A stretch of DNA of 64,000 bases from NCBI RefSeq assembly GCF_002929745.1, contig NZ_PJIQ01000011.1, positions 1 through 64,000 of the forward strand, written 5' to 3'. The stretch comes from Arthrobacter sp. B1805 (GTDB taxonomy: Bacteria > Actinomycetota > Actinomycetes > Actinomycetales > Micrococcaceae). The position numbers were made by a program, and so were the translations under genes. Positions 30,904 through 49,352 of the stretch are shown in pieces. Position 1 is the first letter of the stretch, and each line of letters starts with the position of its first letter. The notes under the pieces were generated by a model, which saw only the letters and a list, made by a program, of their open reading frames with translations, was not told where the DNA came from and did no database searches.

Positions 30904-31823
30904 TCGCGTTCATCGACGCGAACAGACACGACATCGTTGAAGGCCGACCGCTTGGAGTCGAGCCCATCTGCACCCTGCTGCAGGTGGCCCCAAGTACGTA
31001 CTACGCGGCGAAGAACCGCGCCCCGTCCGCACGAGCGGTCAGCGACGCCGCCCTCACACCAGAACTGGTGGCCTTGTGGGAGGAGAACTACCGCGTTTAC
31101 GGTGTCCGCAAACTCTGGAAAGCCGCCCGTCGTGCCGGGTTGGATCTCGGCCGGGACCAGACGGGCCGGTTGATGCGCGCCGCCGGCCTCGAGGGCGCCA
31201 CCCGTTCAAAGCGAATCAAGACCACGCGGCCCGATCCGACTGCAACCAGGCATCCGGATCTCGTCCGGCGGGAGTTCACCGCGACGGCGCCGAACCGGCT
31301 GTGGGTGACCGACCTGACGTTCGTGCCCACGTGGGCCAGCGTCGCGTATGTCTGCTTCATCATCGACGCGTACTCACGGATGATCGTCGGCTGGCGGTGC
31401 GCGTCGCACATGCGTACCGAGATGGTCCTCGACGCAATCGAGATGGCCCGGTGGAGCCGCGGCACTCACCACGAAGACCTGCGCTGTCACAGCGATGCGG
31501 GCAGCCAATTCACATCAATCCGCTACGGCGAACGCCTCGCTGAAATCGGCGCTACCCCATCGATCGGGACCGTCGGCGACAGCTACGACAACGCCCTTGC
31601 CGAAACGGTGAACGGCTACTACAAGACCGAACTCGTTCGCGGTCCAGCTCGATCTGGCCCGTGGAAGACGGTCGAGGACCTCGAGCTAGCGACCCTCGGA
31701 TGGGTCCACTGGCACAACACCCAACGCCTGCACGGCTACCTCGGCGATGTCCCGCCCGTGGAGTTCGAGCAGGCGTTCTATGCTGACCAAACCGACCACA
31801 ATCGGCTGGTGGGAATCACATAA
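30858..31823 (+). CDS. IS3-family OrfB (DDE integrase domain)
   Basis: In the -1 frame relative to OrfA the reading EIVAFIDANRHD... GVEPICTLLQVAPSTYYA is followed by the rve integrase core. The visible catalytic residues are D in WVTDLTFVPTW, D in RCHSDAGSQFTS and E in NALAETVNGYYKTEL. It is normally made only as an OrfAB fusion; a lone GTG start exists at 30984. The catalytic triad is complete, so the element looks functional. The exact frameshift point is not determined. Confidence 0.88.
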   Translation, partial: REFLRGGARPPTQEIVAFIDANRHDIVEGRPLGVEPICTLLQVAPSTYYAAKNRAPSARAVSDAALTPELVALWEENYRVYGVRKLWKAARRAGLDLGRDQTGRLMRAAGLEGATRSKRIKTTRPDPTATRHPDLVRREFTATAPNRLWVTDLTFVPTWASVAYVCFIIDAYSRMIVGWRCASHMRTEMVLDAIEMARWSRGTHHEDLRCHSDAGSQFTSIRYGERLAEIGATPSIGTVGDSYDNALAETVNGYYKTELVRGPARSGPWKTVEDLELATLGWVHWHNTQRLHGYLGDVPPVEFEQAFYADQTDHNRLVGIT

Positions 31824-31943
31824 CGCGAGTCTCCATCAAACCCAGGGCGATTCACCCAACCCTCATGCCGAGATCTCCTCGCTCAAGTATTCGGACCCCA
31901 GTTGCACCGATCGTGAACAGCAGCGTGCCAGCTCCTTCCTGAA

Positions 31944-32558
31944 TCAGAAGACATCGGCCCCTACCTGCATGCTCAGGTAGCGGTACACCGTTGCCCGGCT
32001 CAGGCCGATGATCTTCCCGATATCCGCCGGCGCCAGCCCCTGCGCTTTCAACTCGTGAGCGCGCCTGACCTTCGCATGCTCGGCGGTGACCTCCCGACGA
32101 CCTGCCTTCCGCCCGTGCTCGGCGGCCGCAGCCATACCCGCTCTGGTCCGCTCAGCCAGCTGGTCCCGCTCGAGCTGCGCGAATGCCGACATGACGGTCA
32201 GCATCGCCCTACCCATCGAACCGGTCGTACTGATCCCCTCGGTGACACTCCGGAAATGCACACCCCTCTGTTCGAGGTCATCGATCAGCGCCAGCAGATT
32301 CCGGGTGTTGCGTCCCAACCGATCCAGCTTCCACACCACCACCTCATCCCCCGCCCGAAGATGATCCAAGAGCTTATCCAGCTCGGGTCGACTCGCTCGC
32401 GTGCCGCTCACCCCGTGATCGGTGAAAATCCGAACACAGCCCGCCGCCGAGAGCGCTGCATGCTGCAGATCCGCGTTCTGCTCCAACGTGCTGACCCTGG
32501 CATACCCGATACTTCCCACCCCGACTCCCCCACACTCATCAAAGGCTGATTTTCCCAT
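31944..32558 (-). CDS. serine recombinase (invertase/resolvase family)
   Basis: The catalytic domain starts SIGYARVSTLEQNADLQHAAL. Next come IFTDHGVSGTRASRPELDKLL and VVWKLDRLGRNTRNLL, then the E-helix (GRAMLTVMSAFAQLERDQLAERTRAGM). The C-terminal helix-turn-helix is LAPADIGKIIGLSRATVYRYL. The ATG at 32558 has a weak site; a GTG at 32519 preceded by GGGGGAG may be the true start. It is a different subfamily from the recombinase at 10580. The 318 bases upstream of it (32559-32876) hold no gene but include a short match to 11867-11888. Confidence 0.88.
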   Translation of the reverse strand: MGKSAFDECGGVGVGSIGYARVSTLEQNADLQHAALSAAGCVRIFTDHGVSGTRASRPELDKLLDHLRAGDEVVVWKLDRLGRNTRNLLALIDDLEQRGVHFRSVTEGISTTGSMGRAMLTVMSAFAQLERDQLAERTRAGMAAAAEHGRKAGRREVTAEHAKVRRAHELKAQGLAPADIGKIIGLSRATVYRYLSMQVGADVF

Positions 32559-32876
32559 TCCTGAGAATACTCCCAGTGAGACACATTGTTGGGACGGGGC
32601 ACTCTTCCCCACTCCCCCGCCGATCCTGGAGTTCACCAACCTGGGTAACGAGCTCTGCGTCCGTCCGGTCAAAGGATCCCTTTGACGAGACCCACTGCAG
32701 GAGCGCCCACTGGGGCATCCACGAGCTACTGCGGGTGTGCAGGCGAGTACGAGACACGGATGCTCATCTGCGCGGAAGCTGGAACTCCCTGACTTGTCAC
32801 ACCGGGGCCACTTCGACCTATCACAGTCAACAGCGGAACTTGAAGCGGGCGGACAGCTGTATGCCACGCTGGATGG

Positions 32877-33287
32877 ATGATTACGGGCGACGGTGCGCGG
32901 TTCGAGCTGACAGTCGAGCAAGGCTTCAACCGCTTGCGGTGGTCGCCCAACGTAACGACTATTTCCGGTGAGGACGTGCAGGCAACAGCCGACGCGTTCG
33001 AGACAGTCTTCGGTCCTGACAGGCGTCCCTTGCTGGTGCATGTCGGTGCTCTTGGTGGGATTACCGCCCAAGCTCGGCAGATGTTGCTCGAGGGAACCCA
33101 TCCCACGCGGGTTGCGATCCTCAGCGCGGATCTGGTCACCAAAGTCATCACTGCGTTTGCCTACGCCGCGGTAAGACCCACCCGGCTCTTCAGCGACGAG
33201 ACCGAAGCCATCCGCTGGTTACTCGACGCACTCCCCGAACCCAAACCCGAACACGCCGACGCCGACCCATCTCCCCTGTCGCACTAG
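32877..33287 (+). CDS. DUF7793/STAS-like small protein
   Basis: A 136-residue protein with alternating strand-helix pattern: EQGFNRLRWSPN, then RPLLVHVGALGGITAQARQMLL, and a domain end RLFSDETEAIRWLLDAL. This is the SpoIIAA/STAS-like fold of the DUF7793 group common in Micrococcaceae, with unknown function. A role in signalling or as an anti-sigma-type partner is only suggested by the fold. It is flanked by mobile genes, so it may be cargo. The ribosome site is weak (GGATGG). Confidence 0.65.
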   Translation: MITGDGARFELTVEQGFNRLRWSPNVTTISGEDVQATADAFETVFGPDRRPLLVHVGALGGITAQARQMLLEGTHPTRVAILSADLVTKVITAFAYAAVRPTRLFSDETEAIRWLLDALPEPKPEHADADPSPLSH

Positions 33288-33372
33288 TTGTGGATCAGAA
33301 CGTAGGTGCATAACCGGTGGTGGTCTCAACCGGTCAACGCACCGCCCCTGATCGGATAGGTAGGTTGACTAG

Positions 33373-34539
33373 ATGGTTCGTGATTTTGGGTTTACTGCAG
33401 AGCAGCAGGACCAGCTGTGGGATCAGTGGCGGCGTGGTGATTCTCTTCGTGCGATCGCCCGGGATCTGGGCAGCGGAAGCAACACGGTGCGGCGCTTTCT
33501 CCTGCAGTCCGGTGGTATTCGCTTGCCGGCATCGAAGCGCAACGACAGGCATCTATCGAGTGCTGATAGGGAGGAGATCTCCAGGGGAATTGCTGGGGGC
33601 CGATCGGCGGCGGCCATCGCTGCGGACTTGGGGCGCGCTGCGTCGACGGTGTCGCGGGAAATTCAACGTAACGGCGGCCGTGAGCAATACCGTGCTGTGA
33701 ATGCCGATAAGCGGGCGGTGATGCTGGCAAAGCGCCCGAAGCCACAGCGCTTGGACACGAACCTGATGCTCCTCATCGTGGTGGCCTTTAAACTGGGGCA
33801 GGACTGGTCTCCCGAGCAGATATCTCAGTGGCTGCGGCGTACGTATCCCGAGGACGGATCGATGCGTCTGTCCCATGAAGCGATCTATCGGTCCATCTAC
33901 ATCTCTGAGCGCAAAGCACTCGCCCGGTGCCTCGGGCGGCCGTCACATCATCTGCGGTCAGGACGCACGATGCGCGTACCGCAGGCTCCACGGGTGAGTA
34001 AGCGGGGGCGCTTGAGGAACATGGTCTCTATCCATCACCGTCCGGCTTCTATAGAGAACCGGACTGAAGTTGGTCATTGGGAAGGTGACCTGGTGATGGG
34101 TTCACGCCCCTCGGCCATCGCGACATTGGTTGATAGAAAGAGCCGCTATGTGCGGTTGGTGCACTTACCGGACGGGATCAAAGCCGACGTTGTGCGGCAA
34201 GCACTGACCACGAGCTTTCGCGATTTGCCTGCTGGGCAGCGCCGCTCTCTGACATGGGATCGTGGCAGGGAGATGGCTGAGCATCAGGAGTTGACGGCAG
34301 AGTTGGATTTGCCGGTCTACTTCTGCGATAGGCGTAGTCCGTGGCAGCGGGGTTCGAACGAGAACACAAACAGGTTGTTGCGTCAGTACTTGCCGAAGAA
34401 CAGTGACCTACAGCAGTTCAGCCAGCAGGAGCTCGATGAGATTGCCGAGAGAATCAACTCCAGACCCCGAAGAGTTCTTGACTGGTCGACGTCTGCTGCC
34501 ACGTTCAAGGGCGACAGCGGTATAGCTGGGGCCAGGTGA
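33373..34539 (+). CDS. IS30-family transposase
   Basis: A 388-residue transposase with N-terminal helix-turn-helix regions (SLRAIARDLGSGSNTVRRFL and GRSAAAIAADLGRAASTVSREI) and the IS30 DDE core. The catalytic residues are in GHWEGDLVMG (D), LTWDRGREMAEH (D) and PWQRGSNENTNRLLRQ (E). The C-terminal end (STSAATFKGDSGIAGAR) differs from the usual IS30 tail and may be trimmed. A candidate left end is GGTGGTCTCAACCGGTCAAC at 33315, but I cannot find a matching right end, so the element borders are open. Confidence 0.88.
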   Translation: MVRDFGFTAEQQDQLWDQWRRGDSLRAIARDLGSGSNTVRRFLLQSGGIRLPASKRNDRHLSSADREEISRGIAGGRSAAAIAADLGRAASTVSREIQRNGGREQYRAVNADKRAVMLAKRPKPQRLDTNLMLLIVVAFKLGQDWSPEQISQWLRRTYPEDGSMRLSHEAIYRSIYISERKALARCLGRPSHHLRSGRTMRVPQAPRVSKRGRLRNMVSIHHRPASIENRTEVGHWEGDLVMGSRPSAIATLVDRKSRYVRLVHLPDGIKADVVRQALTTSFRDLPAGQRRSLTWDRGREMAEHQELTAELDLPVYFCDRRSPWQRGSNENTNRLLRQYLPKNSDLQQFSQQELDEIAERINSRPRRVLDWSTSAATFKGDSGIAGAR

Positions 34540-35335: not shown

Positions 35336-35992
35336 TCAGCTTGCGGGGTGATGTCCGGTGCGGATTTGCAGGTGTCCTGCGCGAGCGGACCGGGCTGTCA
35401 CGTCGATGCAGTCACGTTCGACGGCCGCGAAGGGGTGGGCGGTGATGTCCGCGCCGCCGAGGCGGCAGGCTAGGCGGGCCAAGGCGCGGGCTCCGGGGAT
35501 ACGGCTGGTGGGATCTTGCATATCGACGACACAGAGGCGTCCGCCCGGTGCGGTGAGGTCCTGCATCATCGTCCATCCGGCCTCCCACGGCTTCATGAGG
35601 GACAGTGCGTAGGTTGCCAGGGCCGCGTCGGAGAGAGGCAGGCCTCCTTGGGAGGTGATGGATTCGATGATCGCCTCGGTGGGAGTCGTGGTGGTATCGG
35701 CCTGGACGAGGATGATGTTGGTCCATCCTTGTCGGGTTGCTTTTCGCCGGGCTTGGGCGAGCATTTCAGCGCTCCGGTCGATTCCGACGATGGTGCCGGC
35801 CGGTCCGATACGTTCTTTCAGGTGCCGAAAGTTCAGTCCGGTACCGCACCCGACGTCGAGTACTTGCGCGCCGGGGTGAAGATCAAGGGTTTGGACGCCG
35901 AGTTTCCGACCGGCCCGGTAGACGGGGATCTCGGCCGACATGAGGTCGTAGAGGGGCGCGAAGCTGCTGTACTTGTCGGCGATCAGAATCAC
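35336..35992 (-). CDS. class I SAM-dependent methyltransferase
   Basis: About 218 residues. The SAM motif is VLDVGCGTGLNFRHLKERIG, followed by the acidic end of strand two, GIDRSAEMLAQARRKA. A post-motif LVQADTTTTP and LCVVDMQDPTSRIPG complete the UbiE/Methyltransf_11-type fold. The start is a GTG at 35992 without a good ribosome site; a downstream ATG at MSAEIPVYRAG is an alternative. The frame is open much further up but non-coding in character. It diverges from the flavoprotein gene. The substrate is not evident; a lipid or quinone is plausible given the neighbours. Confidence 0.8.
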   Translation of the reverse strand: MILIADKYSSFAPLYDLMSAEIPVYRAGRKLGVQTLDLHPGAQVLDVGCGTGLNFRHLKERIGPAGTIVGIDRSAEMLAQARRKATRQGWTNIILVQADTTTTPTEAIIESITSQGGLPLSDAALATYALSLMKPWEAGWTMMQDLTAPGGRLCVVDMQDPTSRIPGARALARLACRLGGADITAHPFAAVERDCIDVTARSARAGHLQIRTGHHPAS

Positions 35993-36116: not shown

Positions 36117-37565
36117 ATGAGATCGAGTACGGACGTGATTGACCTGCTGGTCGTTGGCGGGGGAACGGCAGGGATCGTGGGGGCGAAGACGGCCGCACGT
36201 CTGGGCGCCCGCGTTGTGCTGGTGGAGCGTTCCCGCACGGGCGGGGATTGCCTGTGGACGGGGTGCGTTCCGTCGAAAACGCTTCTGTCCGCGGCTGCTG
36301 GCGCAGTCGATGCCCGTCGTGGATCGGGTGAGCCGGTGGTGTTTGCTGAGGTCAGAGAGCGGATTGCCGCCGCGATCAGGACGATCGAGCCCGATGATTC
36401 TCCTGCGTCCCTCGAGGAGACCGGTGTGACGGTCCGGCAGGGTGTTGCCCGCTTCACGGGACAGGGCCGGGCGGAGATCGATGGGGAGACGGTGCACTTC
36501 CGTCAGGCCCTGATCGCGACCGGCAGCGAGCCGGCGCTCCCACCCATCGATGGACTGGACACGGCGCCGGTGGTGACATCGGAGACGGTGTGGGACCTTA
36601 CGGAGCTGCCCAGGCATCTGGTGATCATCGGTGGAGGACCTATCGCCTGTGAGCTGGGTCAGGCTTTCGCCCGGCTCGGCTCGGAGGTGACGTTAATTGC
36701 CCAGTCCCGAATCCTGCCCAAGGAAGATCCGGACGCGGCAACGATCATCCGTTCCAACCTCACCGACGACGGCGTGCACGTCATCGAGGGCAGTAACGTG
36801 AAGGAAGTCACCACCTCCACTGGTGGCGGGCAGGAGCCGGTCAGTCGCGTGCGACTCGGTGACGGACGGACCTTTCTCGCCGATTCGATCTTGGTTGCGG
36901 CGGGCCGGCACCCCCGCAGCGAAGGTCTCGGTCTTGAGCTCATCGGCGTCGACACCGACAGCAAGGGCCAGGTAGTGGTCGATCCGAGCATGCGGACGTC
37001 GAATCCGCTTGTGTGGGCAGCCGGAGACGTGACGCAGAACCCTGACTTCACCCACCTCGCCGGGGTCCATGCGAGCACCGCGGCATCGAACGCCGTGCTG
37101 GGAGTGCGCAGGTCGGTGAGCACGGTCGTGCCCCGGGTGACCTACACTTCCCCCGAGGTCGCGGCGGTAGGGGTGACCGAAGCCGACGACCGGCGACACC
37201 GTGTGTCCACGATCGAGTACGCCCACACGGACCGGGCGATCACCGAGAACCAGGAGACAGGTTTCGCCCGCCTGATCATTGACCGGCGCGGCCGTATCCT
37301 CGGTGGCACCATTGTCGGCCCCAGGGCAGGAGAGAGTCTGGGCGAGTTGACCCTGGCGGTCCACCAGAAGCTCACCACACGGGACTTGGCAGGTGTCACC
37401 CACCCCTACCCGACCTATAACGACGCCCTGTGGAACGCAGCCATCGCCGACGCCAGTTCGTCGCTCAAGAAGCCTCTCGTCCGAACCCTCATGTCAGTGC
37501 TGATCTGTGTCACGCGGTGGCGGGCCGAGCGTAAGAACCCCGAAGGTCGGCCCGTGACCAGCTGA
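36117..37565 (+). CDS. MerA-like pyridine-nucleotide disulfide oxidoreductase
   Basis: A 482-residue flavoprotein. The FAD motif is VVGGGTAGIVGAKTAARLG. The redox pair is GGDCLWTGCVPSK (C-x4-C), the NAD(P) motif is VIIGGGPIACELGQAF, and the second FAD site is VWAAGDVT. The C-terminal dimer domain has VTHPYPTYNDAL, with the His-Pro of disulfide reductases. It lacks an HMA domain and the C-terminal Cys pair of true mercuric reductase. Together with the TVP38 gene downstream it resembles the flavoprotein-TVP38 pairs of many bacteria. The electron acceptor is unknown. Confidence 0.87.
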   Translation: MRSSTDVIDLLVVGGGTAGIVGAKTAARLGARVVLVERSRTGGDCLWTGCVPSKTLLSAAAGAVDARRGSGEPVVFAEVRERIAAAIRTIEPDDSPASLEETGVTVRQGVARFTGQGRAEIDGETVHFRQALIATGSEPALPPIDGLDTAPVVTSETVWDLTELPRHLVIIGGGPIACELGQAFARLGSEVTLIAQSRILPKEDPDAATIIRSNLTDDGVHVIEGSNVKEVTTSTGGGQEPVSRVRLGDGRTFLADSILVAAGRHPRSEGLGLELIGVDTDSKGQVVVDPSMRTSNPLVWAAGDVTQNPDFTHLAGVHASTAASNAVLGVRRSVSTVVPRVTYTSPEVAAVGVTEADDRRHRVSTIEYAHTDRAITENQETGFARLIIDRRGRILGGTIVGPRAGESLGELTLAVHQKLTTRDLAGVTHPYPTYNDALWNAAIADASSSLKKPLVRTLMSVLICVTRWRAERKNPEGRPVTS

Positions 37566-37651
37566 CCGGGCCGCGGCTCCCGCACCACCTGACACTACTC
37601 ATACGGCCGTACGGCCACACGGGCGGCTGGTCGAGGGTAGGTCCTGGGCGG

Positions 37652-38299
37652 TCAGCCGAGGATTCGGTAGCCGGCGATGATCCGCTGGGTGGCGCTGACG
37701 GAGACGAGGAGAGCCCAGATGAGGGCGATCTGCCAGGACAGGAAAGGCAGGATCAGCCAGAGGCTGTGCACGATGACCGTTTCGGTTCCTTCGGCGAGAC
37801 CGCCGAGGAAGGACAGGGACCGGCCGTCGTCGATGGTGCGCCCTGTTTTTTCGGCGATCGAGGAAAAGGCCAGGAAGACGCTGCCGTTGATGTAGTACGC
37901 GAAGAGGACGAGGAGGAAGGGTAGCCATGGGGCACCGAAGGCAGTCGTGGCTCCCACGGCGACTCCGACGACGGTCGCCCCGTAGACGACGAAGTCAGCA
38001 GCAATGTCCCAGAAGCCTCCTTGCCCGCCGTCCGGTGCTGTTGGGGCTTGTCCCGGCCGGGCTGTTTGTGTTGCCCGGCGGCGGGCCAGGGGTCCGTCGA
38101 TCCCGTCGGCCAACCGGCACAGGAGCCACGCGATGAGCGCCGGGACCCACAGCTGTGCGGCAGCCATGCCTGCGCTGGCGAGTCCGAGGACGAGGTTCGC
38201 GCCGGTCAGCCGGTTGGGGCTGATCCAGGGGACGTCGAGGATAGCGGCGGTGCGGTTCAGGGCTGGTGCCAGGAGTGGCCGTAGTCGGCTGTCAAACAT
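37652..38299 (-). CDS. CDP-alcohol phosphatidyltransferase family protein
   Basis: A 215-residue membrane protein with about six helices. The catalytic motif D-G-x2-A-R-x(n)-G-x3-D-x3-D is visible as DGIDGPLARRRATQT...GGFWDIAADF; the spacer is longer than the usual eight residues because of an inserted TARPGQAPTAPDGGQ loop. Such enzymes move a phospho-alcohol from or to CDP-lipids. Its start overlaps the TVP38 stop by 8 bases, so the two form an operon. E. coli YnjF belongs to the same family, and its gene neighbours match those here. Confidence 0.85.
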   Translation of the reverse strand: MFDSRLRPLLAPALNRTAAILDVPWISPNRLTGANLVLGLASAGMAAAQLWVPALIAWLLCRLADGIDGPLARRRATQTARPGQAPTAPDGGQGGFWDIAADFVVYGATVVGVAVGATTAFGAPWLPFLLVLFAYYINGSVFLAFSSIAEKTGRTIDDGRSLSFLGGLAEGTETVIVHSLWLILPFLSWQIALIWALLVSVSATQRIIAGYRILG

Positions 38300-38969
38300 C
38301 GGTGGCTCGATTCCTGCGGCGGACCCGCAGGGTGTAGATGAGGCCTGCGAGGGTGAGAGCGCCGAGGACAGCCGCGGCGACAGTGGCGGGCCAGCCGAAG
38401 TCCAGGCCGTAGGCGCCCAGGGCGAGGAAACTCACGGTGCCGGGCAGGATCCCGACCATGGTGCCCAGCAGGTAGGGCCACCAGCCGAGCGCGGTCAGTC
38501 CGGCCGAGTAGTTGATGGCGGTGAAGGGCAGGACCGGGACCAGGCGCACCCCGACGACGGCGATGAATCCGCGCTCACCGAGGACGGCGTCGACTTTCTC
38601 CACCCGGGTACCGGTGAACTTCTCGACCGCGTCGCGTCCGAGCAGGCGTCCGAGCCAGAACGCGGCGGTAGCACCGAGCAGCGCCGCCACGTAGACGAGC
38701 AGCAGTCCCGGGAGGAAACCGAACAGGACGCCTGCTGCGATGGACAGGACGTTCTTGGGCACGGGGGCGAGGGTCAAGGCCGCATAGCCGAGGGCGAACC
38801 CGGCGGGCCCCCACCAACCGGCCCGGTCGACCATGGCGCGCAGCTCGCCGACGTCGGGAAGAGGGACCATCAGCACGACCACGGTCGCGATGATGATGAT
38901 CGCGACCAGCAGCAGGACCCGGCCGAGCGGGGTCATCAGCGGCGCACGGCGCCCGGCGTCGTGCTGCAT
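38292..38969 (-). CDS. TVP38/TMEM64 (DedA-like) membrane protein
   Basis: About 225 residues with five to six helices. The VTT domain shows GWWGPAGFALGYAALTLAPVPKNVLSIAAGVLFGF and FIAVVGVRLVPVLPFTAINYSAGLT, the re-entrant F/G-x3-R-x-VP-PF motif of the family. These proteins are linked to lipid scrambling. The ATG at 38969 has GGGAG upstream; a further ATG at 39020 lacks one. It is the first gene of a two-gene operon with the phosphatidyltransferase and diverges from the ABC operon. A related protein is encoded at 48606. Confidence 0.85.
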   Translation of the reverse strand: MQHDAGRRAPLMTPLGRVLLLVAIIIIATVVVLMVPLPDVGELRAMVDRAGWWGPAGFALGYAALTLAPVPKNVLSIAAGVLFGFLPGLLLVYVAALLGATAAFWLGRLLGRDAVEKFTGTRVEKVDAVLGERGFIAVVGVRLVPVLPFTAINYSAGLTALGWWPYLLGTMVGILPGTVSFLALGAYGLDFGWPATVAAAVLGALTLAGLIYTLRVRRRNRATDV

Positions 38970-39170
38970 GGTCTCCCACCGTAGTCGCCTGATGTCCCGA
39001 TCCTGTCTGATCATCCCCATGTGGTCTGATCCACGTTGGTCTGCCTGCTGTCACGCGATCTAGCTGAATCTGGCCTGATCTGACTAATGCAGCCGGGAAT
39101 GGCCCGTCGAGGATCGGTGCCGCTTCGAAGAATACTGGAACCAGCTCTTACTCACTTTTGCGAAGGACTC

Positions 39171-40472
39171 ATGGATCACACACGCACCTTCCCTTCCCTG
39201 CCGGGTGTCCGGCCTCATGTCCGGTTTCGTGTTCGTCCGCGGAGACCTACGGCGCTCGTGTTCGCCGCCGTATCTGCTGTGGCCGGGCTGGCGGTGAGTT
39301 CCTGCGCCGCACCGTCACCGGACAGCCCGTCGGCCTTCACATCGTTCGAGAACGTCCAGGCCGAGGCTGACGGGCAGACGGTCGACCTGTGGATGTATGG
39401 CGGGGATGAGCAGGGCAACGCGTACGTCGACGACGTCCTGGCGCCGGCCGCGGCAGCTGAGGGGGTGACGCTGCGACGGGTACCGATCACTGACACGGCC
39501 GACGCCGTGAACCGGGTACTGTCCGAACGACAGGCAGGGCGGACGGACGGGTCGGTGGACCTGGTCTGGGTCAACGGCGCGAACTTCAGTACCGGCCAGC
39601 AGGCTGAGGCGTGGCGGTGCGACTGGACGGGCCTGCTGCCGAACATGGAGCTCACCGACCCGGAGGACCCGTTGCTCCTGAACGACTTCGGGACGCCAGT
39701 GGACGGGTGCGAGGCGCCCTGGCACAAAGCCCAGTTCACGTTCTTCTACAACTCCGCGACCGTGACCGATCCACCGACCACCCTTGAGGGCATCCTGCAG
39801 TGGGCGAAGGACCATCCCGGGCGCTTCACCTACCCTGCCCCGCCGGACTTCACCGGCAGCGTGTTCCTGCGCGAAGTGATGCTCAGCGCCGCCGGCGGAG
39901 CCGACGAGGTACCCCTGGACTTCAGCGACGCAGCGTTCGACGAGCACTCCCCCGCAGCCCTCGACGCCCTGACCGGCGTGGCACCGTCCCTGTGGCGTGA
40001 AGGGGCCACCTACCCGCGTGATGAGCAGGCACTGAACACTCTGTTCGCTGACGGTGAGCTCGACATCGCCATGACCTACGGCCCTGCCACCCTGACCGAC
40101 CTCGTCGCCTCCGGCGCCCTGCCGGACACCACGAGGGTCCTCACCCTCGAGGAAGGGACCGTGGGGAACGCGAGTTTCCTGGCGATCCCCGCGAACGCGT
40201 CCGACCCGGCCGGCGCGATGGTCGTCGCGAACCTGGCCCTGTCACCGGACCAGCAGGCGGCCAAGGCCGATCCCGGCACGTGGGGCCAGTTCCCGGTCCT
40301 GGACCCCGGACGCCTGACCCCGGAGGATCAGGCCCTCTTCGACCAGCTGCCTGACTCCCCGGTGGTGCCCACCTACGAGGAACTGTCCCGCAACGCGCAC
40401 GGGGAACTGTCCGCCGAGTGGGTGCCGGCCCTCGACGAGGCATGGCGGCAGGACGTCGCAACCACACGATGA
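39171..40472 (+). CDS. ABC transporter substrate-binding lipoprotein, YnjB-like
   Basis: A 433-residue protein. A lipoprotein signal ends at AVSSCAAPS (Cys about residue 45). The mature part (VDLWMYGGDEQGNAYVDDVL...) and the VWVNGANFSTGQQAEAWRCDW, PAPPDFTGSVFLREV, FADGELDIAMTYGPATL stretches fit the family-1-type binding proteins of E. coli YnjB. GAAGGA lies before the ATG. The stop overlaps the next start in ATGA, opening a four-gene operon. The ligand is unknown; thiamine-, iron- and phospholipid-related ligands are all conceivable. Confidence 0.82.
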   Translation: MDHTRTFPSLPGVRPHVRFRVRPRRPTALVFAAVSAVAGLAVSSCAAPSPDSPSAFTSFENVQAEADGQTVDLWMYGGDEQGNAYVDDVLAPAAAAEGVTLRRVPITDTADAVNRVLSERQAGRTDGSVDLVWVNGANFSTGQQAEAWRCDWTGLLPNMELTDPEDPLLLNDFGTPVDGCEAPWHKAQFTFFYNSATVTDPPTTLEGILQWAKDHPGRFTYPAPPDFTGSVFLREVMLSAAGGADEVPLDFSDAAFDEHSPAALDALTGVAPSLWREGATYPRDEQALNTLFADGELDIAMTYGPATLTDLVASGALPDTTRVLTLEEGTVGNASFLAIPANASDPAGAMVVANLALSPDQQAAKADPGTWGQFPVLDPGRLTPEDQALFDQLPDSPVVPTYEELSRNAHGELSAEWVPALDEAWRQDVATTR

Positions 40473-41416
40473 ACACCTCGACGACGAGTGGGCGACCTCG
40501 CCGGGCAGAACCGCGCATCCGTGCATCCACCGGCCGGCGGACACCAGTGCATCACCGGGCGGCACCTCGGGCTGCCTTGTCCGCTGGGAGGGCGCGGAGC
40601 GTCCTGCTGGCGATACCGGCGGTCGTCCCTGTCGTGCTGGTCATCGGCGTGTCTATCGCCGGAGCGGCAGCCCAGAGCCTGGGATTGATGCCGTTCATCG
40701 GTGCGCCCGTTCTCAGTACACAGGCGTGGGCGGGGTCCGCCGGTGACCTGGGCCGGTCGGTGCTGGTCTCCGTGTACATCGCGGTGGTGTCTACGGTGCT
40801 GTCTCTGATCGTGGGGTTCCTGATCGCCGTGTACGTGCTGGCCGCACCCCGGATGGGGCGGGTCGTCGCGGCCCTCAGTGCGGCGACCATCCCCGTACCG
40901 CACCTCATCGGGGCCGGCGCCATGGGCCTGCTGCTATCCGACAGCGGATTCCTCGACCGTGTCTTCGGCATGCCGCCAGGTTTCCCTTCCCTCGTCGGCG
41001 GTCCCTGGTTCGGCGCGGTCATCGTCGAGTACGCGTGGAAGGAATCGGCGTTCGTCGCCCTCGTGCTCATCGGGAGCATGGCCCGGTCTGTCACGGGCAT
41101 GTGTGATGCTGCGGCGACACTCGGGGCGACAGCGTGGCAACGCATCGTCCATATCGTCCTGCCCCTGTCCCGGCCCGCGCTGGCCGTGTCCGCTCTCATC
41201 GTGGTCGTCTACACCTTCGGGTCCTACGAAGCCGCCTGGCTGCTCGGGCCGACGTCACCGGAACCGGTGTCGGTGCGAGCCGTGCGCCTGTTCGGGTCCG
41301 TTGACCTCGCTGCCAGGCCCGAGGCGATGGCCACGGCCCTGGTCTCCCTCGCGGCCGGCGTCGTGGCGATCCTTGCAGGCCTCGTGGTGCTCCGCGGATC
41401 CAGGGGGCTCCGATGA
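40469..41416 (+). CDS. ABC transporter permease (first), YnjC N-half-like
   Basis: A 315-residue membrane protein with about six helices and a long basic N-terminus (residues 1-45). The EAA-type cytoplasmic loop reads DAAATLGATAWQRIVHIVLPLSRPAL, which contacts the ATPase. ATG 40469 overlaps the binding-protein stop. In E. coli the permease of this system is one fused protein; here it is split into two genes. The end overlaps the second permease in ATGA. Confidence 0.88.
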   Translation: MNTSTTSGRPRRAEPRIRASTGRRTPVHHRAAPRAALSAGRARSVLLAIPAVVPVVLVIGVSIAGAAAQSLGLMPFIGAPVLSTQAWAGSAGDLGRSVLVSVYIAVVSTVLSLIVGFLIAVYVLAAPRMGRVVAALSAATIPVPHLIGAGAMGLLLSDSGFLDRVFGMPPGFPSLVGGPWFGAVIVEYAWKESAFVALVLIGSMARSVTGMCDAAATLGATAWQRIVHIVLPLSRPALAVSALIVVVYTFGSYEAAWLLGPTSPEPVSVRAVRLFGSVDLAARPEAMATALVSLAAGVVAILAGLVVLRGSRGLR

Positions 41417-42333
41417 CCGCGCACCCGGCCACGGATCGGCTTTTGCCATCCCGCCCGTCCCGCCCGTCACCGGCCGGGCAGGCGCGGGGCGGGTCGGCGA
41501 GGAGCGGGTCGGCTGGTCTCAGCGTGCGCGCCAGGCCGGTGGTGCGGGCTGTCTTCGGTGTTCTGCTCGTGCTCTGGATCCTGGTCCCGCTGGTGCCGCT
41601 GGCCCTGTGGTCCGTGGCCGACCGGTGGCAGGCTCCAGCGGTCCTGCCGAATGCTTACTCCCTCGACGCCTTTGCGGTCCTGGGCGCCCCGGGGACACTG
41701 AGCGCCGCAGCGTCGTCATTGCTGCTCGGTAGTGCTGTCGCGATCATCGCGACCCCGCTGGGGCTGATGGGGGCTCTGGCCGCCCGCGCGCTTCCCGGAC
41801 GGTACGGGCGGGCCGTCGATCTCATCCTGCTGCTTCCTCTGGCAGTCCCACCGTTCGCCCTCGTGATGGGCGCGAACATCACACTGCTGCGCCTGTACGT
41901 GCCGCCCTTCGCAGGTGTCGTCCTCCTCCTGGTGGTGATCGCCCTGCCCTACACGGCGTTCATGTTCCGCAGCGCCCTGGCCACCTATGAGCAGCGTTTC
42001 GAGGACGTCGCCCTCACCCTGGGCGCTGATCCGCGGCAGGTCCTCCGACATGTGCGGATGCCGTTACTGTCTGCGGCGACCGTTCGGGCGTTCTTCCTCG
42101 CGTTCCTTGTCGGCTGGGGCGACTACATCACGACCCTGCTGGTCGGTGGCGGGCAGCTGACGACCCTGCCGATGCTGCTGGGATCTGCGGCATCCTCCAC
42201 GGGCAACGAACAGCTCGTCGCCGTCCTGTCCCTGGCCGTCATCGTCCCGCCGGCGTTCATCCTGGCCGCCGTCACCCTGCCGGCCGTCATCACGACACGA
42301 GCCGCGGCGCTGACCCGGAAAGCACACCCATGA
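41413..42333 (+). CDS. ABC transporter permease (second), YnjC C-half-like
   Basis: A 306-residue membrane protein with six helices after a disordered N-terminus (RPSRPSPAGQARGGSARSG). The ATPase-contact loop is EDVALTLGADPRQVLRHVRMPLL. Heterodimer formation with the previous permease is expected. Both ends overlap neighbours by 4 bases (ATGA), which indicates coupled translation and fixed stoichiometry. Confidence 0.88.
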   Translation: MTAHPATDRLLPSRPSRPSPAGQARGGSARSGSAGLSVRARPVVRAVFGVLLVLWILVPLVPLALWSVADRWQAPAVLPNAYSLDAFAVLGAPGTLSAAASSLLLGSAVAIIATPLGLMGALAARALPGRYGRAVDLILLLPLAVPPFALVMGANITLLRLYVPPFAGVVLLLVVIALPYTAFMFRSALATYEQRFEDVALTLGADPRQVLRHVRMPLLSAATVRAFFLAFLVGWGDYITTLLVGGGQLTTLPMLLGSAASSTGNEQLVAVLSLAVIVPPAFILAAVTLPAVITTRAAALTRKAHP

Positions 42334-43499
42334 GCTCGAGGCTTGAAGCCCGGAACATCTCCCGATCCTTCGGGTCCACGGAGGTCCTGCATGCCGTGTC
42401 GCTGACCGTCCCGGCATCGGGATGCGTCGCGTTGCTGGGGGCTTCGGGCAGCGGCAAGTCGACGTTGCTGCGCATCATCGCCGGACTCGACGCGCCGTCC
42501 GGCGGGCAGGTCCTCGTCGATGGTGAGGACCTGGCCCTGGTGCCCGTGGAGCGACGCGGCATGGCCCTGGTCTTCCAGAAAGCCCTGCTTTTTCCGCACC
42601 TGAATGTCATCGACAACGTCGCCTTCGCCGCGCGGATGGCCGGAAGCAGCCGGAAACAAGCCCGCGCGGAGGCGATGGAGTACCTCGAGCTCGTCCACCT
42701 GGCAGATTATGCCCACCGACCGGTCGGCAGGCTCTCCGGAGGGCAGGAGCACCGCGTCGCCCTCGCCCGCGCCCTGGCCCGCAACCCCGGCATCCTGCTC
42801 CTGGACGAGCCCCTCGCGTCCTTGGATGTGCAGCTGCGCCACACCATGTATGAGCTGATCGGTGACATTCGCGCCCAGCTGGCCCCCACGATCGTCGTCG
42901 TAACCCACGACCGGCAGGAAGCCTCGATCCTCGCGGACACGATCGCCGTCCTCGATGACGGGCGCATCCTGCAGCACGGCTCTGTGCATCAGGTCCACTA
43001 CCAGCCTGCGACCCGCACCGTGAACGAGCTCCTCGGAGGACTCAACACCATTCCCGGCATCGTCCTCGACGGCCGCCATCATTCCGTCCTGGGATCTCTG
43101 CCCGTCCAAACCGGCGCCGAGGACGGGCCGTCAGATCTCATGGTCCGACAGGAAGCCCTCACCCTCTTACCCACCGAGAGACTCATGGAGACACTCCCAG
43201 AGAGACTTGGGGAGGAACTCACGGAGGGACGTGCCGAGGGACGTATTGATGGGCCAGACAGCAGGACCGTCACCAGTGGGCACGCGACCATCAAGGGGTG
43301 CGTGTCCTCTCTGACGTCCCTCGGCGCGAGGACCCTGGTGCGTGTGCTCGTTACAGGAGGTTCGCAGAACATCGGAGAGGTTGAGGAGCCGGAGGTCATG
43401 ATCACCGTGGATGTTCCCGGCCACCCTGCACTGTTGTCCGGTCAGGTCATCACCGTGGGCCTGCAGGACCAGCAGGCCTGGGCCGTTCCGGCAGAGTGA
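42330..43499 (+). CDS. ABC transporter ATP-binding protein, YnjD-like
   Basis: 389 residues. The first 240 form a standard ATPase: Walker A GASGSGKST, Q-loop LVFQKALLF, signature LSGGQEHRVALARAL, Walker B ILLLDEPLASLD and switch VVTHDR. The signature has E-H where Q-R is usual. The rest is a TOBE-like regulatory domain split by a charged insert (about 280-320; METLPERLGEELTEGRAEGR). E. coli YnjD lacks this C-terminal part, so the protein is closer to the iron/polyamine ATPase group in that respect. Confidence 0.88.
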   Translation: MSSRLEARNISRSFGSTEVLHAVSLTVPASGCVALLGASGSGKSTLLRIIAGLDAPSGGQVLVDGEDLALVPVERRGMALVFQKALLFPHLNVIDNVAFAARMAGSSRKQARAEAMEYLELVHLADYAHRPVGRLSGGQEHRVALARALARNPGILLLDEPLASLDVQLRHTMYELIGDIRAQLAPTIVVVTHDRQEASILADTIAVLDDGRILQHGSVHQVHYQPATRTVNELLGGLNTIPGIVLDGRHHSVLGSLPVQTGAEDGPSDLMVRQEALTLLPTERLMETLPERLGEELTEGRAEGRIDGPDSRTVTSGHATIKGCVSSLTSLGARTLVRVLVTGGSQNIGEVEEPEVMITVDVPGHPALLSGQVITVGLQDQQAWAVPAE

Positions 43500-43780: not shown

Positions 43781-44524
43781 TCACGGTCTGGGTTCAGGGT
43801 TTCTCATCGCTCGGGCAAAGTCCTCCAGCAACTCCTCCGACAATTGAGGATTCGAACGACGTTCGTGAGCTTTCTCGGTGCGCTGCAGATCGGTCACCTC
43901 TTCATGCAGCCGCTCCATCTTCCGGTCGAGGCGATCTGCGACATCAGCTGCATCCTTGAGTTCGGCGATCAATCTCTCCGGAACCGCGCCTTCGTATTTG
44001 TAGTAAATCTTGTGCTCCAGGCTCGCCCAGAAGTCCATGGCAATAGTTCGGATCTGCAGTTCCACCGGTACCTGATCCACCCTGTCCAGGGTGAAGACAG
44101 GAACGGAAAGCAGTATGTGCAATGACTTGTAGCCGTTGGACTTCGGGTTACGGATGTAGTCCTTGGTTTCCAGCACGGTAACGTCTTCCTGCCGTACGAG
44201 CATGTCGCGGAGCCGGTACGCATCGGATATGAAGCTGCAAGTGATACGGATCCCCGCGATGTCGAGGATGTTCTTGCGAATGGACACCAGCGAGAGTTCG
44301 ATACCGCGACGCCGGGCCTTCTCGAAAATGCTGTCTGCACTCTTCAGCCGAAAGGAGACATGTTCGATCGGGCTGTAGTCATGAGTCAGCTCAAACGCTT
44401 CCTTAAGGATGTTGATCTTCGTCAACATCTCATCGGAGCCGAACTTGTATGACAACAAGAACCGGGCAAACTCGTCACGCAGTGCCCTCATCTCACGGAA
44501 ATCAGGCAACTCGTTGGAGTTCAT
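43781..44524 (-). CDS. small alarmone synthetase ((p)ppGpp synthetase, RelA/SpoT-like)
   Basis: A 247-residue single-domain synthetase. Motifs in order: SFRLKSADSIFEKARRRG, DIAGIRITCSFISDAYRLRDML, RNPKSNGYKSLHILL and VPVELQIRTIAMDFWASLEHK. There is no hydrolase domain. Such SASs (RelQ/YjbM type) make pppGpp/ppGpp/pGpp under stress, mostly under transcriptional control. A coiled-coil tail (DRLDRKMERLHEEVTDLQ) may drive tetramer formation. It stands alone; the 317 bases upstream (44525-44841) show no gene. Confidence 0.88.
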   Translation of the reverse strand: MNSNELPDFREMRALRDEFARFLLSYKFGSDEMLTKINILKEAFELTHDYSPIEHVSFRLKSADSIFEKARRRGIELSLVSIRKNILDIAGIRITCSFISDAYRLRDMLVRQEDVTVLETKDYIRNPKSNGYKSLHILLSVPVFTLDRVDQVPVELQIRTIAMDFWASLEHKIYYKYEGAVPERLIAELKDAADVADRLDRKMERLHEEVTDLQRTEKAHERRSNPQLSEELLEDFARAMRNPEPRP

Positions 44525-45244: not shown

Positions 45245-45281
45245 CCTAACCGGCCCTACAGGCCCTGGTTGGCCGGTTAGG
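45245..45281 (-). terminator. terminator at the end of terC
   Basis: CCTAACCGGCC (45245-45255) and GGCCGGTTAGG (45271-45281) form a perfect 11-bp stem with a 15-base loop. The stem includes the terC stop codon at 45277-45279. No long T-tract is present. Confidence 0.6.
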
Positions 45282-46470
45282 TGTTGGTCTGTTGCTGGAG
45301 GGCGTCGTCGTGCTCAGTGTGGGCCTTGGCGATGTTCTTCATGAACTCGGTTTCGTTGCGGATGTAACGCTTATACTTCTCCGGCAACTTTTTGAGGTCC
45401 TGCTCCTCGGCACACAGCTTCGCGAAGATCCGTTCACGTTCCGTGATGTCGGTCTCGTAGGTGAGGTCGAGGTACTCGGTTGCGTGCCTCTTGGCGCCGG
45501 AAATGGCGTTGATGGCCTTGCCCTTGGGGCTGACCAGGGAGGCAATGACTGTCACGACGAGGACACCGAGGATGACACTGAGAGACAGGCCGGTGGTGAT
45601 CTCGAAGACCGGGACAGGCGCCCCGTCATTGATGAAGGGCAGGTTGTTCTCGTGCAGGGCGTGGAGGATGAGCTTCACGCCGATGAAACCGAGAATCGCC
45701 GCTAGGCCGTAAGAGAGGTATATAAGCCGATCGAGCAGGCCGTCGATGAGGAAGAACAGCTGACGAAGACCCATGAGCGAGAAGGCTGTCGCGGTGAACA
45801 CGATGAAGGTGTTCTGTGTTAGGCCGAAGATCGCTGGGATCGAGTCCAGGGCGAAGAGGATATCGGTGCCGGCGATGGCGATCATGACCAGGAGCATGGG
45901 AGTCAGAACGCGTTTGCCGTTCTCGACGGTGAACAGCTTGTCGCCGTCGTAACGGTCCGAGGCGGGCAGGAAGCGCTTGGCGAGGCGGACCATTGCTGGC
46001 TCTTCATGCTCGGCCGACTTCGGCTTGAGCAGGTTACCTGCAGTGAGGAGCAGGATGAGCCCGAAGATGTAGAACACCCACGCGAAGCTGTTGATCAGGG
46101 TGGCTCCGAGGAAAATGAATCCAGTACGGGCGATGAGGGAAAAGACGATACCGAACAGGAGCACTTTCTGTTGGTCGGCGCGGGGCACCCGGAAGCTGGT
46201 CATGATTATGAGGAACACGAAGAGGTTGTCGACGGACAGCGCCTTTTCGGTGATGTAGCCCGCGAAGTACTCCGAGCCCATCGTCCCGCCCCCGAAGACC
46301 AGGACCCCGACTCCGAACAGGACGGCCAAGCCCACATAGATGGAGGACCAGATGGCCGATTCCTTGAGTGATGGCGTGTGGGCTTTGCGAACGTGGAAGA
46401 AGAAATCGAAGAGTAGTAGTCCGACAATCGCAACGATGGTCAGGGTCCAGACATAAACCGGAACATCCAT
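45277..46470 (-). CDS. terC: TerC/Alx-family integral membrane protein
   Basis: A 397-residue protein with about nine helices. Signature stretches are YITEKALSVDNLFVFLIIMTSF and IAIAGTDILFALDSIPAIFGLTQNTFIVFTATAFSLMGLRQLFF, with the conserved acidic residues (EK, D in SVDN, D in GTD and LDS) thought to bind metal ions. TerC/Alx proteins act in Mn2+ export and metallation of secreted proteins or tellurite resistance. The polar C-terminal 70 residues are cytoplasmic. The 233 bases upstream show no gene; I looked for a yybP-ykoY riboswitch and did not find one. Confidence 0.9.
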   Translation of the reverse strand: MDVPVYVWTLTIVAIVGLLLFDFFFHVRKAHTPSLKESAIWSSIYVGLAVLFGVGVLVFGGGTMGSEYFAGYITEKALSVDNLFVFLIIMTSFRVPRADQQKVLLFGIVFSLIARTGFIFLGATLINSFAWVFYIFGLILLLTAGNLLKPKSAEHEEPAMVRLAKRFLPASDRYDGDKLFTVENGKRVLTPMLLVMIAIAGTDILFALDSIPAIFGLTQNTFIVFTATAFSLMGLRQLFFLIDGLLDRLIYLSYGLAAILGFIGVKLILHALHENNLPFINDGAPVPVFEITTGLSLSVILGVLVVTVIASLVSPKGKAINAISGAKRHATEYLDLTYETDITERERIFAKLCAEEQDLKKLPEKYKRYIRNETEFMKNIAKAHTEHDDALQQQTNT

Positions 46471-48605: not shown

Positions 48606-49352
48606 ATGGAACATTTCAAACGGGCAGGTAGATACACCAAGCCGGCGGGGGGAGAACCAGCCGAAGGGTGTGGGATCGCAAGGTTGACGTCGGAGGAGCA
48701 GCGTCCATCGTCAAGAGGAGTAGCCATCCCAGATGCAGAGCGGTGCCCGGATATTGCCGCATCAACGTCGTCTGAGGGTGCGTCGCTGAGCCCGTCTTCG
48801 ACCGTGCGTTCGGGAGCCGTCCGGGCAGCCGTGTTGGTGGCGCTTTGCGTAATGCTGGTCGTCGTCTGGCTCGCCCTGCCGGCGCCCTCGGTCAAGGACA
48901 TCCGCGAAACGATTGGTTCCTTCGGCTGGTGGGGCAGCGTCGTGTTCGTCGCCGGGTATGGGGTCCTGAGTCTGGTGCCGATTCCGAAGAGCGTGGTCAG
49001 CGTCGCAGCCGGGTTCATCTGGGGATTCGGACTCGGCGTCGCACTGGTCACCATCGCGTCTGCCATCGGTGCGGGACTTGCGTTCCTCATCGGCCGTGCG
49101 CTCGGCCGAGATCTGGTGGAACGGGTGATCGGCGATCGACTCCGGCGCATCGACGACGCACTTTCGGAGAAAGGGCTTCGAGCCGTCATCGTTCTCCGGC
49201 TCATCCCGATACTGCCCTTCACCGTCGTGAACTACGGGGCCGGCCTGACCGAGGTGAGTGTGCGCGACTACGCCCTCGGTACCCTCATAGGGATACTGCC
49301 CGGAACTGTCGTCTTCGTCGTGATCGGTGCAATCAGCTCCACACTCGCGTGA
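48606..49352 (+). CDS. second TVP38/TMEM64 (DedA-like) membrane protein
   Basis: The membrane core starts at about residue 70: AVLVALCVMLVVVWLAL, GWWGSVVFVAGYGVLSLVPIPKSVVSVAAGFIWGFG, then AVIVLRLIPILPFTVVNYGAGLT, the VTT motif with R-x-IP-x-PF. It is a clear paralogue of the 38292-38969 protein. The first 65 residues are polar and variable; a later TTG (LTSEEQ) may be the start, and no good ribosome site marks ATG 48606. Nothing convincing lies in 48345-48605. Confidence 0.8.
   Translation: MEHFKRAGRYTKPAGGEPAEGCGIARLTSEEQRPSSRGVAIPDAERCPDIAASTSSEGASLSPSSTVRSGAVRAAVLVALCVMLVVVWLALPAPSVKDIRETIGSFGWWGSVVFVAGYGVLSLVPIPKSVVSVAAGFIWGFGLGVALVTIASAIGAGLAFLIGRALGRDLVERVIGDRLRRIDDALSEKGLRAVIVLRLIPILPFTVVNYGAGLTEVSVRDYALGTLIGILPGTVVFVVIGAISSTLA

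Follow-up and report, generated by a model that had tools for sequence, protein, structure and literature searches.

In the literature that we found, almost no function is assigned to the ydjX-ynjF neighbourhood of Escherichia coli K-12, and a search of open-licence full texts, with paywalled work outside its coverage, returned no study of what YnjBCD or YnjF do. As read in MG1655, the genes run ydjX-ydjY-ydjZ-ynjA-ynjB-ynjC-ynjD-ynjE, with ynjF on the opposite strand, and the operon includes YnjA (AhpD-like) and YnjE (a sulfurtransferase). A genetic-interaction screen places ynjABCDEFI with the Suf genes (PMC3930520); another study puts an FNR site at ydjXYZ-ynjABCD and describes direct activation of ynjE by FNR (PMC3688515). 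According to a further paper, DedA proteins of the COG0398 type resemble eukaryotic phospholipid scramblases at their putative binding tip, and their commonest domain fusions are with a disulfide reductase of the type encoded at the locus described here, 90% of the proteins being unfused (PMC10127716). No tie of COG0398/TVP38 proteins to CDP-alcohol phosphatidyltransferases (CDP-APs) or to YnjBCD was found in the open-licence papers retrieved.

A related gene set lies in the window (the whole stretch of DNA that was analysed, 64,000 nucleotides from Arthrobacter sp. B1805). An earlier note, made from the sequence alone, had placed a binding protein, two permeases, an ATPase, a CDP-alcohol phosphatidyltransferase, a TVP38 protein and a MerA-like flavoprotein between 36117 and 43499, and had pointed out that the E. 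coli genes are neighbours too; all of the named genes are present there. The unit extends farther leftward, to 35336, by the addition of a SAM methyltransferase gene, which is a member of it:

35336 to 35992, minus strand: class I SAM methyltransferase (Methyltransf_25 of Pfam, 59 bits), divergent from the flavoprotein gene
36117 to 37565, plus strand: MerA-like FAD/NAD(P) disulfide reductase (best NCBIfam model PRK06370.1-3, NF004991; motif GGDCLWTGCVPSK)
37652 to 38299, minus strand: YnjF-type CDP-AP (PF01066, 23.4 bits; gathering score, 22)
38292 to 39020, minus strand: TVP38/VTT (DedA) membrane protein (PF09335, 94 bits; gathering score, 33.9)
39171 to 40472 (open frame from 39087), plus strand: YnjB-family substrate-binding lipoprotein (NF008633 [COG4134], 446 bits; cut-off, 203)
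40469 to 41416, plus strand: ABC permease 1 (YnjC residues 33 to 237; PF00528, 23.5 bits, under the gathering score of 26.4)
41413 to 42333, plus strand: ABC permease 2 (YnjC residues 388 to 500; PF00528, 58 bits)
42330 to 43499, plus strand: ABC ATPase of 389 amino acids (aa) (PF00005, 117 bits; about 170 aa longer than YnjD, at the C-terminus)

The YnjB gene is followed by permease and ATPase genes, the gene order of the YnjB family. Neighbouring genes of this operon, with start codons picked by eye, overlap by 4 bases (ATGA between the YnjB and permease 1 genes, as read in the sequence), the TVP38 and CDP-AP genes overlap by 8 bases, and a lipobox, VSSC, was read by eye in YnjB. A search for an operator common to the two divergent intergenic regions of the locus found neither a k-mer of 8 to 10 bases present in both nor a palindrome (7-base arms with one mismatch), and a sigma-70 scan returned one site versus 0.5 expected.

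Like E. coli K-12, which has two TVP38 proteins, the window holds a YnjB-family protein, permease, ATPase, TVP38 and YnjF in one neighbourhood, with identities of 38% for YnjB, 37% for YnjD and 34% for YnjF over its length. E. coli differs in its fused permease, its 217-aa ATPase and its YdjY, YnjA and YnjE, with no flavoprotein or methyltransferase at that place, whereas the window has split permeases (26 and 30% identical to separate parts of YnjC), a 389-aa ATPase, the flavoprotein and the methyltransferase. The split permease and extra ATPase domain, which the earlier note pointed out at this locus, turn out to be the family norm: four proteobacterial ATPases near YnjB are 210 to 221 aa long and the other 101 of 105 are at least 264 aa, in a list of lengths in which some genomes appear twice, two of the YnjB loci are weak and the value for locus L084 belongs to another ATPase. 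The annotated ATPase of an IncC plasmid is 213 aa.

The Asp motif of the window CDP-AP is complete (D65, D68, G69, A72, R73, G94, D98 and D102, invariant in 25 of 25 aligned sequences) and matches the full D-x2-D-G-x2-A-R...G-x3-D-x3-D of phosphatidylinositol-phosphate synthases (6h53, 6wm5) and other CDP-alcohol phosphatidyltransferases. By profile, the phosphatidylinositol-phosphate synthases are its closest PDB relatives (E = 2e-16). Unlike them, it has AEGTET aligned with their IERPER, the arginines being missing, and a loop insertion after the AR; its AR-to-G spacing is longer than that of E. coli YnjF. By its sequence, the protein is a putative enzyme that would move phosphatidyl from CDP-diacylglycerol onto an alcohol. 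The window TVP38 carries a VTT domain over the cut-off, as do COG0398/TVP38-type DedA proteins, and its identity to YdjX (32%) and YdjZ (35%) suggests that it belongs to the COG0398 subfamily. Family membership is likewise what suggests that it may scramble lipids, and what lay behind the "repair" of a head group that the earlier note thought possible.

Mercuric reductase MerA, which has a C-terminal vicinal cysteine pair, was set aside as the identity of the flavoprotein: the MerA model TIGR02053 gave 361 bits (cut-off, 454), and the C-terminus holds one Cys, with no CC in the last 25 residues. A SAM methyltransferase lies near YnjB in 10 of 105 loci, the window included. Of 14 other loci from the genus and order, a number of which are truncated, 8 have it as well, and 7 of these 8 also have the flavoprotein. 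The third-best PDB match of the methyltransferase profile is phosphatidylethanolamine N-methyltransferase 8ys9 (E = 2e-10).

The AlphaFold2 model of YnjB (pLDDT 93) has a substrate-binding-protein fold. Its best structural matches (Foldseek, VIA) are a mixed list, of binders of phosphonates, dinucleotides, thiamine, iron, sugars and polyamines, with close scores, so the fold names no cargo, and no ligand was drawn from it. A single-sequence search with YnjB against the PDB returned no match and a profile search only weak ones. The first Foldseek match is STM0429, which we take to be PhnS, and, as in 2-aminoethylphosphonate (Phn) importers, Phn models are the top-scoring NCBIfam models for the window ATPase and permease 2. 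Assignment as such an importer was rejected, the PhnT2 and PhnV models scoring under their cut-offs (244 versus 458 and 67 versus 359).

The neighbour survey covered 105 loci and 296 genomes, with 68 YnjB loci having full flanks; 80 named loci are the best 80 of 577 relatives by similarity, so that close kin are over-represented, and in at least two pairs of loci (L061/L122 and L072/L142), all four outside the full-flank set, the contig is the same. With HMMs that include sequences from the counted loci and match thresholds that we set, a YnjF-type CDP-AP was found within 8 kb of YnjB at 34 of 68 full-flank loci, TVP38 at 33 and a MerA-like gene at 33, against 0, 0 and 2, respectively, of 60 control windows (19 kb each, all from actinobacterial genomes and positioned at round coordinates rather than drawn at random). 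Control matches for accessories were 1/60 each for MT2-type methyltransferase, YnjA-like and TIGR04283-like genes and 0/60 for the other accessory families. CDP-AP and TVP38 occur together at 31 of the 68 loci, alone at 3 and 2, respectively, and neither occurs at 32 (p = 2e-13, a value that overstates independence because the loci are related to each other). These 31 loci show 15 gene orders as scored (13 if a double match at L050 and an extra TVP38 at L056 are set aside), and the combination is found in Actinomycetota, Bacillota and Chloroflexota as well as Pseudomonadota. The set is also carried by a Metabacillus plasmid, an E. coli IncC plasmid and a Pseudoalteromonas plasmid; no relatives were found in viral contigs by the patterns used. 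Among the 296 actinobacterial genomes, YnjB scored over the cut-off in 26 and the YnjF type (140 bits or more, our own threshold) in 18, with an overlap of 13 (Fisher p = 4e-12, subject to the same relatedness).

The earlier note had proposed one shared pathway and had named co-occurrence at chance level as the outcome that would speak against it; the survey instead found the combination far above the controls, in at least four phyla and 15 gene orders as scored. That the set is kept together in so many contexts points to one pathway, whose most likely role is to build or modify a membrane lipid. The proposal is supported in part; about half of the YnjB loci are without the lipid genes. Passive synteny or a chance neighbourhood could draw on the relatedness of the loci, some of which are near-identical, and is exceedingly improbable in view of the many gene orders, the phyla, the plasmids and the near-empty control windows.

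Within the genus of the window, the gene set mostly moves as a unit. In two genus members, a 19-kb stretch has the flavoprotein and YnjBCD but neither CDP-AP nor TVP38, and a third locus, which is truncated, resembles them. A YnjF-type CDP-AP stands next to a MerA-like gene in four genomes that gave no match for YnjB (three of these YnjF scores are low, at 145 to 159 bits), which makes the importer an optional element that the lipid part can do without. YnjF is distant from YnjB, or on a different contig, in four genomes, where the stretch examined holds none of the partners. Other YnjB lineages have a nucleoside hydrolase (13/68 loci) or an APH-type kinase (9/68), and neither is found at any of the 34 CDP-AP loci. 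Among 27 YnjB-bearing actinobacterial genomes, 10 have the kinase and 14 the YnjF type, with no overlap. The two types coexist within one family, where their YnjB proteins are up to 76% identical, and the YnjB alignment has no column conserved at ≥80% to different residues between them. TVP38 and the kinase occur together at locus L140.

We read the locus, with a probability of roughly 0.4, as a membrane-lipid module that is mobile and optional and brings its own importer for a small alcohol, in which the cargo, the reaction, the scrambling and the order of steps are what we infer. The YnjB surface lipoprotein, the two permeases and the ATPase would bring in a small hydroxylated compound, the YnjF-type enzyme would react this alcohol with CDP-diacylglycerol to form a special phospholipid and release CMP, and TVP38 would equilibrate the product between the leaflets. 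The methyltransferase and the FAD disulfide reductase, with a tetraether-synthase-like radical-SAM protein in many relatives, may act on the head group or tails, either by modifying them or by keeping them reduced. A similar importer in other lineages would instead be coupled to a kinase, a nucleoside hydrolase or both, which would phosphorylate or cleave the cargo. It is these kinase and nucleoside-hydrolase loci, and their exclusion from CDP-AP loci, that speak for an alcohol as the cargo. It is also conceivable, if doubtful, that two functions share one stress regulon, with YnjBCD as a salvage importer whose cargo is not the head group and a co-induced lipid module that uses a cell-made alcohol. 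The loci that have one half of the set, that is, YnjF-type and MerA-like genes without YnjB in four genomes and YnjBCD with the flavoprotein alone in two or three genus loci, fit such a division, as do an ECF sigma factor beside 12 of 105 loci and an anti-sigma-like gene beside 11. The mutual exclusion of kinase and YnjF types beside similar importers is more easily explained by a shared cargo.

Recurrent partners in relatives, besides the ECF sigma/anti-sigma pair, are a second FAD enzyme and the radical-SAM protein, which is absent from the window genome. The model of the radical-SAM partner, only moderately sure at pLDDT 68, is nearest GDGT-MAS (7tol) by Foldseek (E = 7e-9 versus 9e-4 for the next) and by Z score (14.8 versus 11.4 for the next non-GDGT-MAS entry). 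Like GDGT-MAS/Tes, the protein has, besides this nearest predicted fold, a CX3CX2C motif, other conserved Cys, and a conserved Met in its C-terminal part; unlike them, it has a single conserved Cys before the radical-SAM motif, hence no rubredoxin-type N-terminal site, and it is 16% identical. Membership in the Tes family by sequence was rejected (20 bits on the tetraether synthase model; cut-off, 450). Two Bacillus loci carry a lysyl-phosphatidylglycerol-synthase membrane domain and a fatty-acid desaturase, and a Pseudoalteromonas locus carries a distant OlsE-like lipid hydroxylase (99 bits; cut-off, 475). As sequence and model matches, these partners and the methyltransferase support a lipid context for the set. 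A metalloid pathway resembling that of arsenosugar phospholipids, in which an imported or cell-made deoxyribosyl-metalloid would be glycosylated and then placed on lipid, is very unlikely. The "arsenosugar biosynthesis" transferases TIGR04282 and TIGR04283 score over their cut-offs beside YnjBCD in one Streptomyces locus, which also holds a radical-SAM protein and an MTAP-like phosphorylase, and in two desulfobacterial loci, with weaker matches in one further actinobacterial locus. Set against this, the two types occur in only 4 and 3 of 105 loci, respectively, the TIGR04283 type is found at 2/68 full-flank loci versus 1/60 control windows, scans of two radical-SAM proteins gave no match to an arsenosugar model, and the HMMs built for the survey found neither transferase within 8 kb of the window YnjB.

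An envelope module for redox or thiol stress, in which the flavoprotein, TVP38, AhpD-like and rhodanese-like proteins would handle a thiol or sulfur compound imported by YnjBCD and the CDP-AP would be secondary, strikes us as unlikely. It would account for the MerA-like gene at 33 of 68 loci, for YnjA and YnjE in the E. coli operon and for the reductase fusions of COG0398 proteins (90% of which are unfused) (PMC10127716), the grouping with Suf genes (PMC3930520) and the FNR site and FNR activation of ynjE (PMC3688515). It leaves unexplained why CDP-AP and TVP38 are equally constant (34 and 33 of 68 loci) and why a lipid-synthase-like radical-SAM protein is a partner, and the E. coli locus has no flavoprotein.

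The survey yields a defined, widespread system with a core of YnjF-type CDP-AP and flavoprotein, usually with TVP38, an optional importer and recurrent accessories. It offers gene context for the bacterial relatives of tetraether lipid synthase, which, according to one study, exist in bacteria not known to make such chains (PMC9433317), and for the COG0398 DedA proteins, whose bacterial function is described as open (PMC10127716). In its widest form, which we hold to be rather doubtful as a whole, the membrane-lipid reading would describe a cross-phylum, plasmid-mobile system that scavenges an outside alcohol as a stress-inducible phospholipid head group, with tails often modified by a radical-SAM enzyme of the tetraether-synthase type and an importer that can be re-wired to kinase or nucleoside-hydrolase salvage, and E. 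coli ydjX-ynjF would represent a reduced form of it.

The unit lies in a draft actinobacterial genome of 3.80 Mb (79 contigs) with a single YnjB gene. The gene set claimed for it in the earlier note, comprising YnjB, permeases, an ATPase, a phosphatidyltransferase, TVP38, and a MerA-like flavoprotein, was recovered from the window by ORF lists and family scans, together with a methyltransferase gene; start codons were chosen by eye:

35336-35992, minus strand, methyltransferase (ORF list/family scan)
36117-37565, plus strand, MerA-like flavoprotein (ORF list/family scan)
37652-38299, minus strand, YnjF-type CDP-alcohol phosphatidyltransferase (CDP-AP), overlapping the TVP38 gene
38292-39020, minus strand, TVP38, overlapping the CDP-AP gene
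39171-40472, plus strand, YnjB, 4-base overlap with the first permease gene
40469-41416, plus strand, permease 1, 4-base overlap with the permease 2 gene
41413-42333, plus strand, permease 2, 4-base overlap with the ATPase gene
42330-43499, plus strand, ATPase, last gene of the YnjB operon

The counterpart neighborhood of E. coli MG1655, read directly, encodes proteins 26 to 38% identical to those of the unit. Directly downstream of the unit, a family scan identified a RelA/SpoT-type (p)ppGpp synthetase (43781-44524, minus strand), followed by a TerC-like membrane protein recognized by eye (45277-46470, minus strand) and, ∼10 kb downstream of the unit TVP38, a further TVP38/VTT gene (48852-49352, plus strand; 49% identity to the first).

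For the linkage survey, 105 loci were assembled from the best 80 of 577 YnjB relatives in one scan, 24 loci from 296 actinobacterial genomes, and the window. Sixty-eight of them, with about 8 kb on either side of YnjB, formed the full-flank set, and 60 actinobacterial windows, each 19 kb long, served as controls. The proposed association of TVP38 and CDP-alcohol transferase genes with ynjB homologues proved to be above chance: within 8 kb of YnjB, CDP-AP was found in 34/68 loci (0/60 controls), TVP38 in 33/68 (0/60 controls), and a MerA-like gene in 33/68 (2/60 controls), with all three present in 28/68. From the density of VTT matches in the window's genome (7 in total), about 0.03 would be expected per 16 kb. 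CDP-AP and TVP38 occurred together in 31 full-flank loci, in 15 orders and orientations as scored (13 without two double TVP38 hits), so that inherited synteny alone is insufficient as an explanation. At the genome level (YnjF-type threshold, at least 140 bits), YnjB exceeded the cutoff in 13 of 18 YnjF-type genomes versus 13 of 278 others among the 296 (Fisher P = 4e-12, kinship ignored).

The gene set was found again on plasmids of E. coli (IncC), Metabacillus, and Pseudoalteromonas, and the patchy occurrence of YnjB in the genus (11/35 genomes) fits horizontal transfer. Upstream of the unit (30984-34539), IS3-like and IS30-like transposases and a resolvase were recognized by eye. The IncC plasmid locus (L034, CP063738.1, 1-15567) adds DoxX, two FAD enzymes, an ECF sigma factor, an AhpD-like gene, and HAD type II to the cassette; its TVP38 is short (162 amino acids) and adjoins an IS150 transposase. 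Matches with the same 38.1% identity were carried by plasmids of Salmonella, Klebsiella, Citrobacter, and Providencia, with cattle as the source of many. Across the 105 loci, accessory genes included an ECF sigma factor (12), an anti-sigma-like small gene (11), a SelD-N-terminus-like FAD enzyme (10), and HAD type II (5).

CDP-AP, TVP38, and MerA-like genes are all missing from roughly half of the YnjB loci; this half consists of the loci seen in Rhodobacterales and Desulfobacterota, most Chloroflexota loci, and some from a Rubrobacter-like family. Within the genus, two members carry only the flavoprotein and YnjBCD, and a third, incomplete locus looks alike. Four genomes have YnjF and YnjB apart from each other, with YnjF at a distance or on a separate contig and no partners in the stretch examined; in a fifth, it is on a separate contig, adjoined by TVP38 and MerA-like genes. 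Four YnjF-type genomes without a YnjB match have CDP-AP adjoining a MerA-like gene, one adding TVP38 and one a radical SAM gene and an ECF pair (YnjF scores were low, 145 to 159 bits, in three of the four). The importer is therefore optional, and the constant core appears to be CDP-AP and the flavoprotein, usually with TVP38.

Among 135 hand-chosen neighbor proteins from 26 loci without CDP-AP, the top Pfam families were APH-type kinases (11), nucleoside hydrolases (9), and xylose-isomerase-like TIM barrels (5). Nucleoside hydrolase genes were present in 13 of the full-flank loci and APH-type kinase genes in 9; neither occurred in any of the 34 CDP-AP loci, and 16/68 had neither these nor a core gene. 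Of 27 YnjB-bearing genomes (one counted through a YnjB fragment below the cutoff), 10 have the kinase, 14 are YnjF type, none is both, and 3 are neither. TVP38 and a kinase share a single locus, L140. One family holds both locus types, with YnjB identity of up to 76%, and under an 80% rule no YnjB alignment column was conserved differently between them. CDP-AP and kinases alike use a hydroxyl group of their substrate; most simply, both locus types would handle a single class of cargo, a small alcohol that meets one of two fates. In Rubrobacter-like loci L119, L120, L124, L126, and L128 to L130, an APH-type kinase, a nucleoside hydrolase, and YnjBCD lie close together, possibly as a riboside or polyol salvage operon. 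TIGR04282/TIGR04283 "arsenosugar" transferases above the cutoff adjoin YnjBCD in three surveyed loci (L057, 982-3166; L084, 7599-8980; L111, 13895-15231), the first also with an MTAP-like phosphorylase.

All CDP-alcohol motif residues are kept in 25/25 aligned YnjF-type proteins, whose nearest solved structures are PIP synthases. Where PIP synthases have IERPER, the window CDP-AP has AEGTET, and a different, perhaps unphosphorylated, acceptor would therefore be expected. COG0398 DedA proteins have been proposed to resemble phospholipid scramblases, and a reductase of the MerA-like flavoprotein's type is their commonest fusion partner (PMC10127716). A radical-SAM partner, present in 19/105 loci and absent from the window's genome, gave a model (pLDDT 68) that two aligners matched best to the tetraether synthase GDGT-MAS; in sequence, the partner stands far from the tetraether synthases. 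In Bacillus, a VTT protein adjoins a lysylphosphatidylglycerol-synthase membrane domain at one locus (L118, 5837-8016), and another has a fatty-acid desaturase (L113, 4107-5018).

In E. coli, an FNR site is listed for ydjXYZ-ynjABCD and direct FNR activation described for ynjE (PMC3688515), ynjA was up 1.6-fold and ynjB 1.4-fold with BaeR (PMC2731931), the ynjABCDEFI genes grouped with Suf genes by their genetic interactions (PMC3930520), and a PdhR-binding peak precedes ydjX (PMC7660256); the passages of these four papers on these genes assign no function to YnjBCD or YnjF. A search of open-licence full-text literature found no description of the neighborhood. The neighborhood is real and conserved, and it most likely represents a putative lipid-modification module with an optional importer.
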